Origin: a virus
Reading direction: 5' to 3' (one strand)
Virus record (IMG/VR): IMGVR_UViG_3300022858_000824
Span: 1-27,000 of that record
Length of the DNA stretch: 27,000 nucleotides
This document shows positions 1 to 26,886 of this stretch, piece by piece. The notes beneath the pieces were generated by a model that saw only the letters and a program-made list of their open reading frames with translations, made no database searches and was not told the DNA's origin. The position numbers and the translations under genes are program-made. Within the stretch, counting starts at the first letter, position 1. Each line of letters begins with the position of its first letter.

Positions 1-1
1 C

Positions 2-1384
2 TTTTATCTAACTGAAAAGCCAGCAGTACGCCAACTAAATCAACTATCAGAAGATACCTTATGGAAGATGTTCACGAAAGACTGTGATTTATACAGCACA
101 AACTTCGATGTATTCCTGAATGAAGCGCAAAAAATGGCAGCGATATATGGGGCTGTTGGTGTACTAATCGACAAGCCATACTCAGAAAATAAAATAGTCA
201 AAGATGATATTGCTCAGGGAATATACCCATACTGTGCTCTGTTCACACTACCAAATATCCTTGATTGGAATCATGAAAGAGATCCAATCACTAATAGACC
301 AACGCTGACTTACTTAAAACTCCTGGATTTCGATAATAGGTATATCTTATGGTGGCGTGACAGATGGGAAATATGGAAACTTCCAGAAGGTAATCCATCA
401 CCAATGCGTGTACACAAGCACAAGGACACCACGGATTATGAACAAAGACCTGGTGATAACAAATGGGCAGATGAGCCAGGACAAACATATAAAACGCAGG
501 TCGGACAGGAAGAGCCAATCTTACTGGATTCTGGCGAGAATCCATTGGGGGAAATACCATTTGTATGGTTCCAAAATATTAAAAGTATCATGAATCCGTA
601 TATCGGTGCATCTGATATTAAAGAGATTTCAAGGATTACAGCAAGTGTTGTTAGGAACATATCTTATGGCGAAGAGGTTCTCAAATTTGCTGGTTTCCCA
701 CAAGCACGACGACCAATGGAGAAGGAAGGCCAGCCGACAAGTAACGAGTCTGGTGTTAAAGCAATACTTGAATTTGATCCAGAATTAGGTGAAGCTGGTA
801 AGCCTGACTGGCTCGAAGCAAAGGTGAAAGAACCAGTAGATGCCATCCTTGCATGGATTAGTAAAAAGATAAATGAGATATTTCAACTCGCTCATCTATC
901 AGGTATTCATGCTAGTGAGGCAAGCGACCAAGTACGGTCTGGTGTAGCACTACGATACGAGTATCAACAGCTTAGTCTTGTGCTCACCAAAAAGAGTGAA
1001 AATGTCACAGAAACAGAATTGGGTATTATCAAATATTGGCTGAAGTGGCAACAGAGATCTAACTGGTTTGACAGTATGTTGATTTCAAGAAGTAAAGACT
1101 TTAGTATTGATGATCTATCTCAAAATCTTGAAAATGCTATAATGGCAAACAAAATAGTACCAGAGCTGACTTTTAAGAAAGAGCTTATGAAAGTTGTGGC
1201 AAAACGAGTCCTCCCAGATATCGCTGATGTTAAACTAACTGAGATATACGATAGAATAGAAGAACTGACAGAGGCTGACCTTGTAGAGAGAGATGCAGGC
1301 GCAACAGAGGATCGTTCGACAAAAGATATACGACAAAATATGCAGGAGAAATGGAAAAGAGATGGGGATACGCAGAACACCTGA
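2..1384 (+). CDS. Phage portal-like protein, 5' end cut by window edge
   Basis: The frame is open to the first bases of the window, so the true start lies outside; the first internal ATG is at 68. About 460 residues are visible. The protein looks like a phage portal (DUF4055/SPP1 gp6-like type): an early helix-rich segment around NEAQKMAAIYGAVGVLID, a central block with GEIPFVWF, then NPYIGASDIKEISR and a long helical C-terminal half with a charged tail. Portals form the dodecameric ring at the capsid vertex through which DNA passes. No catalytic residues are expected, so the call rests on overall pattern and not on a motif. It is the only structural gene seen and is on the opposite strand to nearly everything else. 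The next gene starts inside its last 34 bases. I am confident it is a phage structural protein, less so of the exact family. Confidence 0.66.
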   Translation, partial: FYLTEKPAVRQLNQLSEDTLWKMFTKDCDLYSTNFDVFLNEAQKMAAIYGAVGVLIDKPYSENKIVKDDIAQGIYPYCALFTLPNILDWNHERDPITNRPTLTYLKLLDFDNRYILWWRDRWEIWKLPEGNPSPMRVHKHKDTTDYEQRPGDNKWADEPGQTYKTQVGQEEPILLDSGENPLGEIPFVWFQNIKSIMNPYIGASDIKEISRITASVVRNISYGEEVLKFAGFPQARRPMEKEGQPTSNESGVKAILEFDPELGEAGKPDWLEAKVKEPVDAILAWISKKINEIFQLAHLSGIHASEASDQVRSGVALRYEYQQLSLVLTKKSENVTETELGIIKYWLKWQQRSNWFDSMLISRSKDFSIDDLSQNLENAIMANKIVPELTFKKELMKVVAKRVLPDIADVKLTEIYDRIEELTEADLVERDAGATEDRSTKDIRQNMQEKWKRDGDTQNT

Positions 1385-2013
1385 GTAGAGATATAATTGT
1401 GAAATTAACGATAACACTTCCGCTGTATGCTCCTATTGCTGAAAATAATAGTGGGAGCATACAGCATATAATAAATGCGCTAGTAATGCGGACTCATAAT
1501 AACTTCATGGTGAATGCGTCAAATAAAATAGCAACGGTTATAGACACCAAAACCGCTGATAATCTGCAACTAGGAAATATCCCAGAGAATCCAATACTGC
1601 TATGGGTGTATTGTGCAATATATCCATTGGATTTTTGTAATAAAATAATGCGGCAACTGCCAGAAAATACACCCCAGTTACATGCGGCAGCGCTTAACAG
1701 TACACTACAATGCATAACCCCTAATATCAGTATGCTTGTTGATAGTGCATGCAAAGATAAATTTGAATTGAGCATACTAGAAACACTTTATAAACGCTAT
1801 ACAACTATAGAACGAGCGGTATCTTCAAGAAATGAGTCGTATAGAAACAGCTGTGGGACAATAAAACTATTCAAAGAGTACATTCTGTATTACATATGCA
1901 GTATTATGTATCAAAGCAAGCTCCTCGATGCTATCCTGATAAAGACCGATAGTATCTGCAAAGAATTAAACACACTCCCAGACGACAATGGAATAACCAT
2001 CTATAAACAATGA
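1351..2013 (+). CDS. Unknown protein downstream of portal
   Basis: A 220-residue protein of no family I recognise. The ATG lies inside the portal reading frame, 34 bases before the portal stop, and AGGAG at 1344-1348 sits only two bases upstream of it, a short spacing that still suggests coupled translation. The sequence is mixed alpha/beta with a Cys-containing C-terminal half (SACKDK, SCGTIKLFKEYILYYICSIMYQ) and no signal peptide. Its last 48 bases overlap the 3' end of the minus-strand methyltransferase gene, so the two transcripts converge with no room for a separate terminator. Its place after the portal suggests a head-module or accessory role, but that is only context. A later start inside the frame is possible. 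Confidence 0.55.
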   Translation: MEKRWGYAEHLSRDIIVKLTITLPLYAPIAENNSGSIQHIINALVMRTHNNFMVNASNKIATVIDTKTADNLQLGNIPENPILLWVYCAIYPLDFCNKIMRQLPENTPQLHAAALNSTLQCITPNISMLVDSACKDKFELSILETLYKRYTTIERAVSSRNESYRNSCGTIKLFKEYILYYICSIMYQSKLLDAILIKTDSICKELNTLPDDNGITIYKQ

Positions 2014-2835
2014 ACCTACGTAGGATCTCATTGCACAAATGACATTCAGTAGACCTCTACCTTCCATAGTTCTCAGAAAATCAAGATACCCATCCAAATA
2101 ATTGCGTTTCTTAGCATAATTAACTGACAAATAATCCAACAAATTAGACTCTGGATTGAGTAGTTCGTTGATAGGTTCTATATGAATAACATATCTTGGC
2201 CTATTAGCTAACAGGTAGTCAAAAAATTTCTGGAAATCAGTACCAAGCTGTTCCATTGATGCTACTGTACACACAACGCTGTCAGCATTTAATTTATAGG
2301 AATAATCTGGCTCAAACATATTAAACTTTCTACCAGATACATTATCTAAGAATTTACTGATACCACTAATGTTGTCCAATGATGAATCTACCCAATCAAG
2401 TCCAACTATGGATTCCAATTTTGTATTAGCAGCACTAATACGTAATAGATTATGTCCAGTACCACAACCAAACTCATAGGCATATGATACTTTGGAAATG
2501 TACTTTGGAAATATGTAGCGCTGTATAGCCGTAAATGTGCAATATTCTAATGCTAGAAATTTACTTTCTGTGGATGTTACAAATTCATTACCCATGCGGA
2601 CAACTGGATATTTCCCAAAATATCTTGGGATAAATATGTCATTAATACTGTTATTCTTCCAACCATCTTGCCACTCATGAATCCTCTTTCTTCCAGCCAT
2701 GTTAGTAGCATCCAAACCTTTGATATGTTCTAGTACAAACAGAATCCATTTATCACGCTCTTCTACTGTAAGAGTTCTATAACCCAATTGCATTTTAGTA
2801 AATTCAGCTTGTACATAATCGTAAATATCATTCAT
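1966..2835 (-). CDS. Class I SAM-dependent methyltransferase
   Basis: About 289 residues. The AdoMet-binding motif I is YEFGCGTGHN near residue 120, followed by the acidic strand end GLDWVD that would hold the ribose hydroxyls; this is the class I Rossmann arrangement. Residues 1-110 are helical and would be a substrate-specific cap. The substrate cannot be read from the sequence; neighbours in sugar metabolism suggest a sugar or small metabolite. I place the start at the ATG at 2835, with GGGAG about 11 bases upstream; an in-frame TTG three codons earlier lies too close to that site. It is the last gene of the minus-strand cluster, and its 3' end overlaps the plus-strand gene at 1351-2013 by 48 bases. 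Confidence 0.75.
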   Translation of the reverse strand: MNDIYDYVQAEFTKMQLGYRTLTVEERDKWILFVLEHIKGLDATNMAGRKRIHEWQDGWKNNSINDIFIPRYFGKYPVVRMGNEFVTSTESKFLALEYCTFTAIQRYIFPKYISKVSYAYEFGCGTGHNLLRISAANTKLESIVGLDWVDSSLDNISGISKFLDNVSGRKFNMFEPDYSYKLNADSVVCTVASMEQLGTDFQKFFDYLLANRPRYVIHIEPINELLNPESNLLDYLSVNYAKKRNYLDGYLDFLRTMEGRGLLNVICAMRSYVGSLFIDGYSIVVWECV

Positions 2836-2874: not shown

Positions 2875-3411
2875 TTATAGTAATCTCTCGATGACACATT
2901 CCCAAAACAGTTTTGCATTATATCTTTCAACTGTCTTATCGTGTCCATGTTTAGCTATAGCTAAACGTTCTTCATCATGTTCCAAATAATACTTGACCTT
3001 ATCAACTAGGTCGGAAAAAGGGCAAAATGGAACGTAATCCTCAAATGGATCATAGAAACAGTGTATCTCTTGACCGTTTTGTTCTAACAACATAGCTCCA
3101 CAGAGCATAGTTTCAAATACTCGTGCATTTACTACATTCATTCCTGAACTACCGCTGTAAGAAAAGCTTAGATTTATCTTAGTTCTGTTCAGCATAGTTG
3201 CATATTCAGATGTTATAATATGCGCATCACGCTCACCACCAGTACATAGTATGTCAATATCTGCATTTTTAATACTCGTTATAGCACTTGTTCGTTCAGG
3301 ACGAGTTGACCCCATATAGAGAATAGGAATGTTTCTTTCTATTTTGTAATCATAAAACGTTCGCTCATCTTTAGGAACCCAAGAGTAGTAAAACGTTTTG
3401 CTATTAGACAT
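2875..3411 (-). CDS. Glycosyltransferase, C-terminal half (split gene)
   Basis: 178 residues that look like the C-terminal nucleotide-sugar-binding half of a CgeB/GT-B type glycosyltransferase: FYYSWVPKDERTFYD at the start, SGSSGMNVVNARVFETMLCGAM in the middle, then YYLEHDEERLAIAKHGHDKTVERY. The same ending (YYLEHNEERTAIAQAGYQRTV) closes the 749-residue glycosyltransferase at 12544-14793. The partner half is the next gene upstream in another frame, and the two overlap by 73 bases. This half has its own start: ATG at 3411 preceded eight bases upstream by AGGAG. The frame stays open a few codons upstream (ADRM), which continues the family pattern, so an ancestral single gene probably split by a one-base shift. 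It could still act as a separate subunit. Confidence 0.68.
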   Translation of the reverse strand: MSNSKTFYYSWVPKDERTFYDYKIERNIPILYMGSTRPERTSAITSIKNADIDILCTGGERDAHIITSEYATMLNRTKINLSFSYSGSSGMNVVNARVFETMLCGAMLLEQNGQEIHCFYDPFEDYVPFCPFSDLVDKVKYYLEHDEERLAIAKHGHDKTVERYNAKLFWECVIERLL

Positions 3412-16636: not shown

Positions 16637-16837
16637 TTAATTTCTATGTTTGATCTGCGCCTCCAGCTCCGCAATGAAAAAGTCACGGTCCGCCGCATCT
16701 CTTGTTTCGTAGACCTGTTTACCATTAAGGAGTACCTTATAAATAGGTTCGCCCTGGAAAAAGCTGAAAATGTTTGTATCAGGCCGAATCTCTTTAGCAG
16801 ATATGTCAGTATGTTCTTCCCATATTACCATATTCAT
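16637..16837 (-). CDS. Unknown 66-residue protein
   Basis: I start it at the ATG at 16837, which overlaps the stop of the interrupted deaminase gene (TGATG); a longer in-frame reading begins inside that gene without an RBS. Sequence begins MNMVIWEEHTDI, has IFSFFQGEPIYKVLLNGKQVYETRDAADRDF and ends in a helix. The middle predicts a short beta hairpin with a small ligand-binding look, but no family is claimed. Confidence 0.5.
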   Translation of the reverse strand: MNMVIWEEHTDISAKEIRPDTNIFSFFQGEPIYKVLLNGKQVYETRDAADRDFFIAELEAQIKHRN

Positions 16838-16992
16838 CACTGTTTCCCCAATGTTCCTTCTAAATAACATATTTTCCCAAAATCATCTGAAAAATACACA
16901 TTGGATATTCCAACATCATTAATCAGCCCTCTACACAAACTACATGGTTTTAAATTTAGTAGTTTCCCAGCTTTATTGATTCTGACGACCAG

Positions 16993-17027
16993 ATTTCAAT
17001 CAGCGCACCCGCGCAAGGTGCGATCGC
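16993..17027 (-). repeat. Repeat R1, copy B, with HIP1 octamer
   Basis: 35 bases. On the plus strand it starts ATTTCAATCAGCGCACCCG and ends with GCGATCGC at 17020-17027; CGCACC and GGTGCG can pair around a 7-base loop. It lies between the HAE and PCxxC parts of the deaminase gene and shifts the frame by two. Confidence 0.75.
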
Positions 17028-17082
17028 CTTTTGTTCAGCATGTAAACTATCTACCCATCTTTTGTACTTTTTATCTAGCTTC

Positions 17083-17110
17083 ATTTCAATCAGCGCACCC
17101 GTGCGATCGC
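17083..17110 (-). repeat. Repeat R1, copy A, with HIP1 octamer
   Basis: 28 bases. It shares the first 19 plus-strand bases with copy B and also ends in GCGATCGC (17103-17110), but lacks the 7 bases between. CGCAC and GTGCG flank only two bases. It lies in the deaminase gene and shifts the frame by one. Confidence 0.75.
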
Positions 17111-17142
17111 GATATACACAAACATTTGATATTGTAATTTAT

Positions 17143-17166
17143 TTGGAAAGTTTTAATGAGCCACCC
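17143..17166 (-). repeat. Repeat R2, copy 1
   Basis: 24 bases, plus strand starting TTGGAAAGTTTT and ending ATGAGCCACCC. It differs at one base from the copy at 18866-18889. In the deaminase frame it equals eight codons (GWLIKTFQ). Its GGGTG..GCT.ATT.AAA core (minus strand) resembles R1, so R1 and R2 may be one family. Confidence 0.68.
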
Positions 17167-17228
17167 GTGCCTATGCTTAAAATTAGACTTCTCAGCCTCT
17201 TTTATTTCTGCCTTTAGGATATTATCAA

Positions 17229-18359
17229 TCATCTTAATAATACAGTGCCTACTTTTTTCATTTCTTCTTTTTTAAAATATTTACTCAAAAATCTAAATGT
17301 TTCCGCTTTATCTTTACTCAAATCAAACCCATTTTCTTTTGCAATCACATATGCATCGTTTATCCTTTTTGTATCTTGCATATGCTTCAATACATCTCTA
17401 AATATATTTTTGATTCTTGGTTTGGATGTAAAGATCATCTTATCTGAATATTCTTCTTTTAATAATTCTAATATATACTCCAAATCTGGTTCAATATCTT
17501 CAAATGCGTTAATTATCGTGTTCCAAATAGCTCGTTTTTGAATTACGCCAGAAGCAGCCCAATGTATCTTTTCAATTTCTTCCGGTTTGCATTTAAACAT
17601 TTTCCAAGAACGTTCCCCAATATCAGCGTAGAACACAACTCCTTCTTGTATCAACCCATTGCAATTGCTCTTAGACATCTCTGTCCGTACAAACTGATAT
17701 AATTCAGTTACATCATCGACAGTAAAATTGTACCTCTTTGGTATACAAGTATCTATTAAACAATTTATATTTAACCTATTTGGAGGTACGATACTATAAT
17801 CAAATCTATCTACACCAAAAAGTAATTTTGTTGCTAATGAGATATCATAATAAATTGTTATTGGATTCCTCGTACCATATAATTCAAAAGATAAATTAAA
17901 TACAAGATTATTATCTATTACGTCTTCAATCCATTTATTTTCTGTTAATAATTCTTTCCACATACTTAAAAAAGGACCATAAACAGTATCAGATAACACT
18001 GGACCTAACCTTGTTTTATATGTTAAAAATCTTGTTCCTTCTTTATTCCAATAGTGATATGCCAAAATGTTAGTACCATCTAGCTTGTCCCATAGTTGAA
18101 CTTGTTTAATCTTAGGCCAATGAAAGACGCCTTTCTTATCAAAAGGGTAATGTAATTTTGGAGTTCCATAAATAATTTGTGGAGTAATTATTTCGTTATC
18201 TACTTCAAATAATACCATTGAGCCATATCTATAATCAGAACGTCTACAAATAACACCTTTTAATTCAATATTATTAAATGTATCTAATACTTCAAATTCT
18301 TTCAAATTATCTTCGGGAACTTCAAGATATTCGGCAGCCTTCATGATATTGCTTAACAT
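17229..18359 (-). CDS. RNA ligase-like nucleotidyltransferase
   Basis: 376 residues. The covalent nucleotidyltransferase motifs are in order: motif I DKLDGTN with lysine 92 as the adenylated residue, motif III-like SFELYG at 157-162, motif IV EGVVFY at 239-244, and motif V KMFKCKP at 253-259. A helical C-terminal domain follows. This is the ATP-dependent RNA ligase plan (T4 Rnl1/Rnl2 relatives), joining 5'-phosphate to 3'-hydroxyl RNA ends, in phages often to repair tRNAs cut by host defences. No polynucleotide kinase was seen nearby. AAAGGAG six bases before the ATG supports the start. The end overlaps the deaminase-like gene by ATGA. DNA ligase is less likely because the OB-domain signature is missing. 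Confidence 0.82.
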   Translation of the reverse strand: MLSNIMKAAEYLEVPEDNLKEFEVLDTFNNIELKGVICRRSDYRYGSMVLFEVDNEIITPQIIYGTPKLHYPFDKKGVFHWPKIKQVQLWDKLDGTNILAYHYWNKEGTRFLTYKTRLGPVLSDTVYGPFLSMWKELLTENKWIEDVIDNNLVFNLSFELYGTRNPITIYYDISLATKLLFGVDRFDYSIVPPNRLNINCLIDTCIPKRYNFTVDDVTELYQFVRTEMSKSNCNGLIQEGVVFYADIGERSWKMFKCKPEEIEKIHWAASGVIQKRAIWNTIINAFEDIEPDLEYILELLKEEYSDKMIFTSKPRIKNIFRDVLKHMQDTKRINDAYVIAKENGFDLSKDKAETFRFLSKYFKKEEMKKVGTVLLR

Positions 18360-18815: not shown

Positions 18816-19023
18816 GAATCCCCCTAATTAATAATAGTTGGAAATCTACGTTAAATTTTAATTTGTTGGAAAGTTTTGATGAGCCACCCTTTTCTCCGTT
18901 GCGTTCTGGATGGTCCATGACAGGATTTATCAAAAATATGAAAGGAGTGTACTGCTATTTTGCTGGCGGAAAATAAAGGAAAACGCCAGCGATGGTACGG
19001 AGAATTAGAACACGCCACAACGC
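18816..19023 (-). other. Open frame without a start, hairpin and R2 copy 2
   Basis: Between two genes, the minus strand stays open for 57 codons right after the zinc-protein stop (GVVACSNSPYHRWRF to GWLIKTFQQIKI) but has no ATG, GTG or TTG with an RBS near its beginning. It contains inverted repeats: GCTGGCG/CGCCAGC (18962-18990) and, outside these, TTCTCCGT/ACGGAGAA. The last codons are the R2 repeat. This may be a gene remnant or a structured spacer. Confidence 0.4.
18866..18889 (-). repeat. Repeat R2, copy 2
   Basis: 24 bases with one mismatch to 17143-17166. It is read in the same codon phase (GWLIKTFQ) as copy 1, which may be chance or may show that the element carries a frame. Confidence 0.68.
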
Positions 19024-19208: not shown

Positions 19209-19225
19209 CATTTCAATCAGCACAC
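19209..19225 (-). repeat. Repeat R1, copy C (degenerate)
   Basis: Plus strand CATTTCAATCAGCACAC; identical to the start of copies A and B except for one missing G, and without the HIP1 octamer. It sits in the leader of the zinc-ribbon gene. Confidence 0.5.
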
Positions 19226-19262
19226 TCTCGATGAATGCACCCAATACGCTTTCTTTTCCTTT

Positions 19263-19300: not shown

Positions 19301-20263
19301 TTAGAAAGTAGGAAAAAGACCTAGATCACGCCTTCTTTTAGGTATAGGACCGTTTTTAATCTTTCTGAGAATATGCGATATAACATCAACAGTCCATCCA
19401 TTCCCTATTAATTTACACCTATTCCCAACTTGTAATCCGCCAGTATATCCAACTGGTACCGTTTGTAGGCGCTCCCATTCTGTAACAGTGAGTCTACGCC
19501 ACATGAGAGTAGTAGGCTCATTATCTTTATCAAAAACAATATAACCATATTTTATCCAATTACTTCCAGAGGCAGTAAGTGCATGACTCTTTTTGGACAA
19601 ATTACTCAAAACCCTACCACTCATACCGGTATTACTATTATTAATATTCAGTAATATCTGTTTTTTACTATCTGGGATATGAAGCCTTCTCGCAATTTCA
19701 CCATCAACAGGCACAGCGTTATAGAAAGAATCGTCAATATCTTCTAGCACATCTTGTAAATAAATGCATCTATCTATTGGTTTCTTTACATTCGGAATAT
19801 TTGTCCAATAGAGCCTTTCTCTGTTTTGTGCGGATACCAACGCACTATTTATTCTAATTGGGCGTGTTTTCAGATATTCAGATATTTTATTTTCCCATTC
19901 TTTCTTCATCTTTACATTTTCCAACAGGAAATATTTTGGCTTACATTCATCAAGTAAACGCACAAACTCGAAAAATAGCTTGCTCTGAGGATCTTCAAAA
20001 TTTAAACCTTTACCAGATGTCGAGAATCCAACGCACGGACTTCCACCAAGGAGCAACTTAATTTTTGGAAGATCAACGCCTTTAACTTTGGTGACATCGC
20101 CCAACTGAATCGTATTTGTAAAACGCTTCTGTGTAATAGTAATTGCATCTTTATCTACTTCTGACGCATAGTAATTATCGTATTTGATTCCAGCTCGACG
20201 CAATGCCAGCTGACCGCAACTCATTCCATCAAAAAGTGAAAGGATGTTGAATTCTTGTTTCAT
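19301..20263 (-). CDS. C5-cytosine DNA methyltransferase (copy 1 of tandem pair)
   Basis: 320 residues. Motif I is LSLFDGMSCGQLAL, motif IV GGSPCVGFS with catalytic Cys77, motif VI LLENVKMKK, motif VIII QNRERLYW, motif IX RRLTVTEWERLQTVP, and motif X GNGWTVDVISHIL. All catalytic parts are present, so the enzyme should be active. It differs from the usual PCQGFS by valine after the cysteine. The variable target-recognition segment (about residues 185-245) is shorter than in the neighbour and unlike it. It follows that neighbour with an ATGA overlap and RBS AAAGGAG. No restriction enzyme is evident, so host-restriction avoidance is the likely role. Confidence 0.92.
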   Translation of the reverse strand: MKQEFNILSLFDGMSCGQLALRRAGIKYDNYYASEVDKDAITITQKRFTNTIQLGDVTKVKGVDLPKIKLLLGGSPCVGFSTSGKGLNFEDPQSKLFFEFVRLLDECKPKYFLLENVKMKKEWENKISEYLKTRPIRINSALVSAQNRERLYWTNIPNVKKPIDRCIYLQDVLEDIDDSFYNAVPVDGEIARRLHIPDSKKQILLNINNSNTGMSGRVLSNLSKKSHALTASGSNWIKYGYIVFDKDNEPTTLMWRRLTVTEWERLQTVPVGYTGGLQVGNRCKLIGNGWTVDVISHILRKIKNGPIPKRRRDLGLFPTF

Positions 20264-21381
20264 ACGCTCTCCTTTATCGTTAAACTATTGCTTTCGCTAT
20301 TCACTTCTAAAATCTCGTGCAGAGGGAAAAGACCGACTGGTTGTTTATCCCTCGGCTTTTTATAAAGATTTTTGAGGATATGTGCAATCACATCAACAGT
20401 CCAACCATTGCCCAACATCTTGTAACGTTGGGCGTTGCTTACATGATTAGTATAATTATCAGGCACAGTCTGTAGTCTTTCACACTCAATTGGTATTAGC
20501 TTCCGCCAATTGGATTTATCTTGATTATAAACTCCGATACCTCTTGTTATTCCACCAGCATTGCTCCTGATTGTACTTGCTTTTTCATTTAACCTGGAAG
20601 GTTCATCACTCTTATACTTCCATATATTATCTAATATTGCATAATTACCACTTGTGCATTCTCGCAAACTACCAAATTTATCCTTCCCAGTAATTCCACC
20701 AGTATTCCATCCGTGCGGCTTTTCAAAAACCATCAATCTTAATTCCAATTGTTTAAAATCATTAGACCCTTTTTCTAACTTTTCTGCTTTATTCTTAAAA
20801 CTCCCACCTTTAAAATAACAAGCATCAATACAATATGATTTGTCTTGGCGGACGGACCCATGCTCAATAATATCTTTCAATAGGATTCCCTTATCTTTTG
20901 GCTGCTTGACGCCAGCTATATTCGTCCAGTACAGGCGGACTCTGTTTTGTGCAGACACCAATGCGCTATTAATTTGAATTGGACGCACATCCATATAGCT
21001 TGATATGATATCTTTGTAGACTTTCTTCATCTTTACATTTTCCAACAGGAAATATTTTGGCTTACATTCATCAAGTAGGCGCACAAATTCAAAAAACAAC
21101 TTACTTCTATCATCGCTAAAGTTTAAACCAGCACCAGCAAAGCTGAACCCTTGGCACGGCGAACCTCCCATCAACAGATCTATTTTTGGAAGATTAGCAC
21201 CTTTCACTTGCCTAACATCGCCCAACTGAATTGTGTCTGGAAAGTTCGTCTGCGTTACTTTGATGGCGTATTTATCTACTTCTGACGCATAATAGTTGTC
21301 ATATTTGATCCCAGCTCGACGCAACGCCAGCTGACCGCAACTCATTCCATCAAATAAACTCAAAACATTAAATTCAAACAT
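20260..21381 (-). CDS. C5-cytosine DNA methyltransferase (copy 2 of tandem pair)
   Basis: 373 residues from the ATG at 21381 (a TTG one codon earlier is possible). Motifs: LSLFDGMSCGQLAL, GGSPCQGFSFAGAG with catalytic Cys76, LLENVKMKK, QNRVRLYW, LIPIECERLQTVP and GNGWTVDVIAHIL. The catalytic N-terminal part is very similar to the downstream copy, and a 57-base stretch is identical in both genes (19900-19956 and 21021-21077). The target-recognition regions do not match, so the two probably methylate different sites after a recent duplication. A TATAAT box lies 21 bases upstream of the start. The first gene of a two-gene operon. Confidence 0.92.
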   Translation of the reverse strand: MFEFNVLSLFDGMSCGQLALRRAGIKYDNYYASEVDKYAIKVTQTNFPDTIQLGDVRQVKGANLPKIDLLMGGSPCQGFSFAGAGLNFSDDRSKLFFEFVRLLDECKPKYFLLENVKMKKVYKDIISSYMDVRPIQINSALVSAQNRVRLYWTNIAGVKQPKDKGILLKDIIEHGSVRQDKSYCIDACYFKGGSFKNKAEKLEKGSNDFKQLELRLMVFEKPHGWNTGGITGKDKFGSLRECTSGNYAILDNIWKYKSDEPSRLNEKASTIRSNAGGITRGIGVYNQDKSNWRKLIPIECERLQTVPDNYTNHVSNAQRYKMLGNGWTVDVIAHILKNLYKKPRDKQPVGLFPLHEILEVNSESNSLTIKESV

Positions 21382-21384
21382 CAA

Positions 21385-23146: not shown

Positions 23147-23329
23147 TTATTTTGAAATTCTTTTCCATGTATTCCAAGAAGTACGTTTGACTATTTTATC
23201 ATCACACATGTCTTTGATTGGTTGATTGTAACAAGGGTATGATCCAAATAAAAATACATCCAATGGTAATCCATCTCCGCATATATTCTCTGCTGTTATC
23301 TCTTCATAAACTGCTTCTCTCTGTTGCAT
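23147..23329 (-). CDS. Unknown 60-residue protein
   Basis: Starts MQQREAVYEEITAEN and contains CGDGLPLDVFLFGSYPCYN and DMCDDKIVKR. AGAGGT six bases before the ATG is part of the R3 repeat that also precedes the DNA methyltransferase gene. Three cysteines without clear zinc spacing. Its end overlaps the start of the promoter region for the ribbon-helix-helix gene. No family recognised. Confidence 0.5.
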   Translation of the reverse strand: MQQREAVYEEITAENICGDGLPLDVFLFGSYPCYNQPIKDMCDDKIVKRTSWNTWKRISK

Positions 23330-23360
23330 ATTTAACCTCTGACGCAGTAATATTTATTTT
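23328..23360 (-). repeat. Repeat R3, copy 1, gene leader
   Basis: 33 bases on the plus strand beginning ATATTTAACCTCTG and ending GTAATATTTATTTT, one mismatch to 25514-25546. On the minus strand it places AGAGGT (an RBS) and TTAAATAT directly before a start codon, with a small CTG-CAG palindrome. It overlaps the last codons of the DUF559 gene. Confidence 0.7.
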
Positions 23361-25513: not shown

Positions 25514-25546
25514 ATATTTAACCTCTGTCGCAGTAATATTTATTTT
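25514..25546 (-). repeat. Repeat R3, copy 2, gene leader
   Basis: 33 bases with one mismatch to 23328-23360. It lies seven bases from the methyltransferase start codon. On the minus strand it would be the end of the leader RNA with its AGAGGT box. Confidence 0.7.
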
Positions 25547-26670: not shown

Positions 26671-26886
26671 TGACCCTAATCTTGACCCTGATCTTGACCC
26701 TGATCTTGACCCTGACCATGACCCTGACCATGACCCTGATCTTGACCATGACCCTGACCCTGATCTTGATCTTGACCATGATCTTGACCCTGATCTTGAC
26801 CATGATCTTGACCATGATCTTGACCATGACCCTGATCTTGATCTTGCCCCTGACCTTGCCCCTGATCTTGACCTTGACCTTGACTC
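26671..26886 (+). repeat. Hexanucleotide array, 36 units
   Basis: 216 bases, exactly 36 six-base units with no insertion or deletion: 12 TGATCT, 10 TGACCC, 7 TGACCA, and 7 variants (TGACCT, TGCCCC, TAATCT, TGACTC). Because the unit is a multiple of three, long open frames arise on both strands; on the minus strand one reads alternating Ser with Arg, Gly or Trp, another Val-Lys-Ile. These are probably by-products, though a Ser/Arg-rich peptide from an ATG at 26907 cannot be excluded. Confidence 0.9.

Follow-up and report, generated by a model that had tools for sequence, protein, structure and literature searches.

The gene at positions 16837–17232 (minus strand) of a 27-kb virus record, referred to here as the window, is a broken dCMP-deaminase-like gene whose three pieces lie in frames 1, 2, and 1. 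The explanation we favor, at somewhat better than even confidence, is that a decayed deaminase gene was patched by local copying of a short GC-rich repeat, designated R1, that one copy (R1A) replaced native sequence, and that the locus no longer yields a deaminase. The starting point would have been a dCMP-deaminase-type gene of a tailed phage, now decayed, into which R1 was copied twice. The event at copy A would have been the replacement of a native stretch of similar length (~33–36 nt) rather than a clean insertion. Such a replacement probably arose illegitimately, for example by template switching from one short stretch to another, or else through patchy recombination with some unknown DNA. 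The present product would consist of short fragments at most. Comparison with relatives places R1A at coding sequence that is essential in those proteins, the frame shifts near both R1 copies, and each piece fits the deaminase family; what we infer is how the replacement came about, that function was lost, and that R1 copying caused the frame changes.

The gene is coupled to its neighbors at both ends. Its ATG at 17232 lies within the stop codon (ATGA) of an RNA-ligase-like ORF (phrog_562; 17229–18359, minus strand; E 1.7e-7), while its TGA at 16839–16837 shares bases with the start codon at 16837 (TGATG) of the next ORF downstream (16637–16837, minus strand). The zinc motifs HAE and PCxxC are both present in different frames: the N-terminal piece occupies frame 1, the middle piece with HAE frame 2, and the C-terminal piece with PCxxC frame 1, so that no continuous open frame spans the gene. 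The frame changes coincide with R1B (first) and R1A (second). Subtracting both copies from the 396 nt leaves 333 nt, a single open frame of 110 codons coupled to both neighbors. The initial annotation had described a broken deaminase-type gene with real repeats where its frame shifts and with coupling to either neighbor, all of which we see, and its arithmetic, by which removal of 28-nt and 35-nt repeats gives one coupled 110-codon frame, is right. Frame restoration is nonetheless the weaker evidence, because lengths of 1 and 2 modulo 3 arise about once in 9 cases. With the repeats left in, the 396-nt stretch makes 132 codons, still a whole number.

R1A (16993–17027, minus strand) is 35 nt in length, GCGATCGCACCTTGCGCGGGTGCGCTGATTGAAAT. 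R1B (17083–17110, minus strand; 28 nt) equals R1A without CTTGCGC, and the two copies share an identical 19-nt core plus a common GCGATCGCAC. A third, partial copy (19210–19227, minus strand), which matches the core at 16 of 18 positions (15 of 16 over 19210–19225), is located ~2 kb from the copies in the deaminase gene, upstream of a small zinc-ribbon-like ORF. R1 is a true repeat and not a product of chance, with 3 matches in the window against 0.01 in shuffles. The GC content of R1A (60%) and R1B (57%) compares with 33% in the rest of the gene. A second repeat, R2, has one copy (R2a; 17131–17166, minus strand) in frame in the N-terminal piece, where it encodes GWLIKTFQ..., and another (18855–18889, minus strand) in the short gap before a pyrimidine-dimer glycosylase gene. 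The 24 nt at 17143–17166 agree with 18866–18889 at 23 of 24 positions, bearing out the earlier report of a 24-nt in-frame R2, and allowing one gap lengthens the match to 36 nt (E 7e-7 within the window). R2 and a 33-nt leader are other short near-identical duplications in the same contig that we count toward local duplication. The 33-nt sequence occurs at 23328–23360 and 25514–25546 with one mismatch between copies, each of which, on the minus strand, directly precedes a start codon (ATG 23329; ATG 25506). The latter ATG opens an N6/N4 DNA methylase gene, and the pair resembles a copied ribosome-binding leader.

Assignment to the deaminase family rests mostly on the C-terminal piece, and HAE stands in the expected order. 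A profile of 26 phage relatives (L021–L055) gave 38.6 bits for the C-terminal piece, 6 for the middle one, and 1.4 for the N-terminal one. The joined protein, translated with both repeats deleted, matched a protein of Desulfovibrio phage 7757 (E 3e-4; 34% identity over the aligned region), the nearest found among phage dCMP deaminases (PF00383; phrog_174). The gene resembles these enzymes in HAE, PCxxC, an LVVRI strand, an N-terminal helix, and gene size; it differs from them in its three frames and in that its R1-deleted form is at least 11 residues short between the motifs.

The spacing between HAE and PCxxC argues against the proposal that removing both repeats restores the gene. Deletion of both leaves 17 residues, whereas HAE (or HSE) and PCxxC are separated by 28–34 residues in all phage relatives examined (one larger value, due to a second HAE upstream, was set aside) and by 24 or 26 residues in 30 cellular PF00383 deaminases. 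Counting in the 35 nt of R1A gives 28–29 residues. The R1-deleted protein therefore falls outside the range of ~24–34 residues, which is reached solely with R1A kept; R1A stands where relatives have at least 11 essential residues. Profile scores gave the same answer. At 39.1 bits, the joined protein did no better than the C-terminal piece by itself, since the profile finds no place for HAE. When R1A was kept and one frame change allowed, the score rose to as much as 56.0 bits, with 48–56 bits at most switch points inside R1A, and the PF00383 score rose from 19.7 bits in the joined protein, below the Pfam cut-off of 25 bits, to 25.2 bits. Of the similarity to deaminases attributed to the joined protein, the match of its C-terminal piece to the family stands; joining the pieces adds nothing to it. 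Since score and spacing both recover when R1A is kept, R1A appears to occupy native coding length and is probably not a clean insert.

The recovered score reflects length more than content. Random filler of R1A length averaged 46–47 bits at a fixed position and 50.7 bits with the best switch point chosen; the gain is therefore mainly an effect of length. With a late frame switch, 16 of 400 shuffles reached the score of R1A (p ~0.04), and with its first six bases (GCGATC) fixed, 69 of 400 did so (p 0.17). The edge of R1A over shuffles comes mostly from residues K-A-I, and part of R1A may be native. In an AlphaFold model of one phage relative, L038 (mean pLDDT 86), the missing stretch corresponds to the end of the HAE helix (65–72), a turn, and the start of the strand 79–85. 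As this stretch belongs to the core of the model, the R1-deleted protein would probably fail to adopt a deaminase fold.

The main rival to patching by R1 holds that the R1 bases are ordinary codons, that the gene is intact at ~131 codons, and that the compensating frame changes are contig indel errors or recent mutations in GC-rich, hairpin-prone spots. We regard this as a real but minor possibility. The 132 codons obtained with the repeats in compare with ~124–135 residues in relatives, and the best score of 56 bits is reached by keeping R1A and shifting -1 where it ends, which yields a strand-like ALIEI-LVVRIN. Moreover, a PF13524 glycosyltransferase gene in the same contig (2875–3827) also seems frame-broken, split into two overlapping ORFs by a shift at an AAAA run near 3377. 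On the other hand, a near-identical contig from another sample (L057) matches window positions 1–2809 ungapped at 99.86%, and the assembly is therefore good over that stretch. The rival must also treat as coincidence that two copies of one foreign-looking repeat stand exactly at both frame changes, and R1A only barely beats its shuffles. R1B does not beat them at all (72 of 400 reach its score).

R1B is less constrained than R1A. From the beta-1 glycine to HAE there are 32 residues without R1B and 41 with it, compared with 26–44 in relatives and 34 in the closest of these (L021). Likewise, the profile score was 55.8 bits with R1B deleted and ~56–58 bits with it kept. R1B may thus have been inserted cleanly, may have replaced other bases, or may be native. 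The plausible spacing left by its deletion is one point in favor of a second alternative, in which very small mobile repeats, comparable to the small dispersed repeats of cyanobacteria, inserted cleanly into an intact phage gene. Two near-identical copies of different lengths at both frame changes also favor it, as does the GC-rich composition of R1, which bears an uninterrupted HIP1 octamer, GCGATCGC. We nevertheless consider clean insertion improbable. At R1A it is contradicted by the spacing, since deletion leaves the catalytic core too short; we saw no target-site duplication and no donor for R1, and found no relative with an empty site. What survives of the earlier suggestion that small mobile repeats were inserted is that the repeats are real and that the spacing is plausible at R1B.

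Searches for R1 elsewhere also bear against its being a mobile element. A search with its 18-nt core returned 16 single matches among 84,980 genomes and a further two among viral contigs; every one stood in an unrelated context and lacked the GCGATCGCAC part. A gapped R1 pattern matched seven stretches in all, none of which continued as R1; contigs of 57–69% GC accounted for six. Plasmid and phage records contained nothing credible. R2 gave nothing in viral contigs, and R2 searches that left out genome_contigs and phages gave nothing beyond chance. A host-derived dispersed repeat was rejected as a candidate on the outcome of these R1 and R2 searches (for R1: genomes, plasmids, phages, and viral contigs). 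As judged from these collections, R1 does not appear to be among known repeats.

According to PMC4390886, GCGATCGC is the cyanobacterial HIP1 octamer, and SDR5 enters HIP1 after its third base. SDR5 as described there splits the octamer, whereas the octamer in R1 stays whole. Like R1, the small dispersed repeats of cyanobacteria (Elhai et al. 2008, via PMC4390886) are reported to be very short, GC-rich, HIP1-bearing, and present in several copies. Unlike those repeats, R1 is known from one contig only, would replace codons at copy A, and has no multicopy family in a host: its exact core does not occur in many copies in any of the 84,980 genomes. We found no link between the phage and a cyanobacterial host despite the octamer.

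A third alternative places the damage at R2a and R1A as displaced patches, with R1B native in frame 2 and its RTGALIEMKLDKKYKRW aligned to KTHPLQAKFAERV of relatives. The best profile score of all, 62.8 bits, was obtained when the first switch of frame was put inside R2a or immediately ahead of it, as opposed to ~57 bits with that switch at R1B. The gain amounts to only ~5 bits where conservation is weak, frame 2 runs into a stop directly behind R2a, and R1B is GC-rich like R1A and unlike the native codons here. We think this alternative very unlikely.

Could the repeats be read through, so that a working joined enzyme results from translational bypass, splicing, or programmed frameshifting? 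Bypass gaps, as in T4 gene 60 and the mitochondrial byps, are non-coding gaps of ~30–50 nt, found for instance in a phage gene, and R1 is of that size. Coupling at both ends, open frames on either side, and the folding of R1A into a hairpin (-11.8 kcal/mol) are in line with such a mechanism. Unlike bypass gaps, however, R1 has no identical take-off and landing codons at its boundaries, and the joined product is not of family length and lacks core residues. The R1 hairpins are no more stable than those of shuffles (z -0.1 and -1.0), and an Rfam search returned no family match. Frameshifting would have to run in opposite directions at two copies of one repeat, +1 at one and -1 at the other. Splicing and bypass presuppose the joined protein as their product, and both therefore fall with it. 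The earlier suggestion of splicing or bypass through the repeats thus appears unlikely, and we give a functional joined deaminase made by any of these routes hardly any credence. Just as far-fetched is the idea that R1 represents a new family of tiny phage repeats that replace equal lengths in genes, with the deaminase still made by shifting frame at both copies.

Searches for the ancestral form of the gene gave no intact close relative. Among related phages, 14 contigs (4.7–10.3 kb) carry a relative of the portal gene, and the six that were searched contain no deaminase; RNA-ligase and glycosylase queries returned no relatives. In three contigs (L058, L059, and L060), a span of 7–8 kb takes in both the portal gene and genes resembling those at ~8.5–11.4 kb of the window. 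Most of the intervening sugar-gene cluster is therefore absent there. Elsewhere in the window, two neighboring cytosine-methylase-like genes (19301–21384) share 75% DNA identity over 437 nt and look like a tandem duplication, and an array of ~18 copies of a 12-nt unit occupies 26671–26884.

An exactly restored frame is weak evidence of removable inserts, and the spacing of motifs in relatives provides a sharper test. If the local short duplications of R1, R2, and the 33-nt leader are real, they would mean that phage genes are patched by tiny copied segments.
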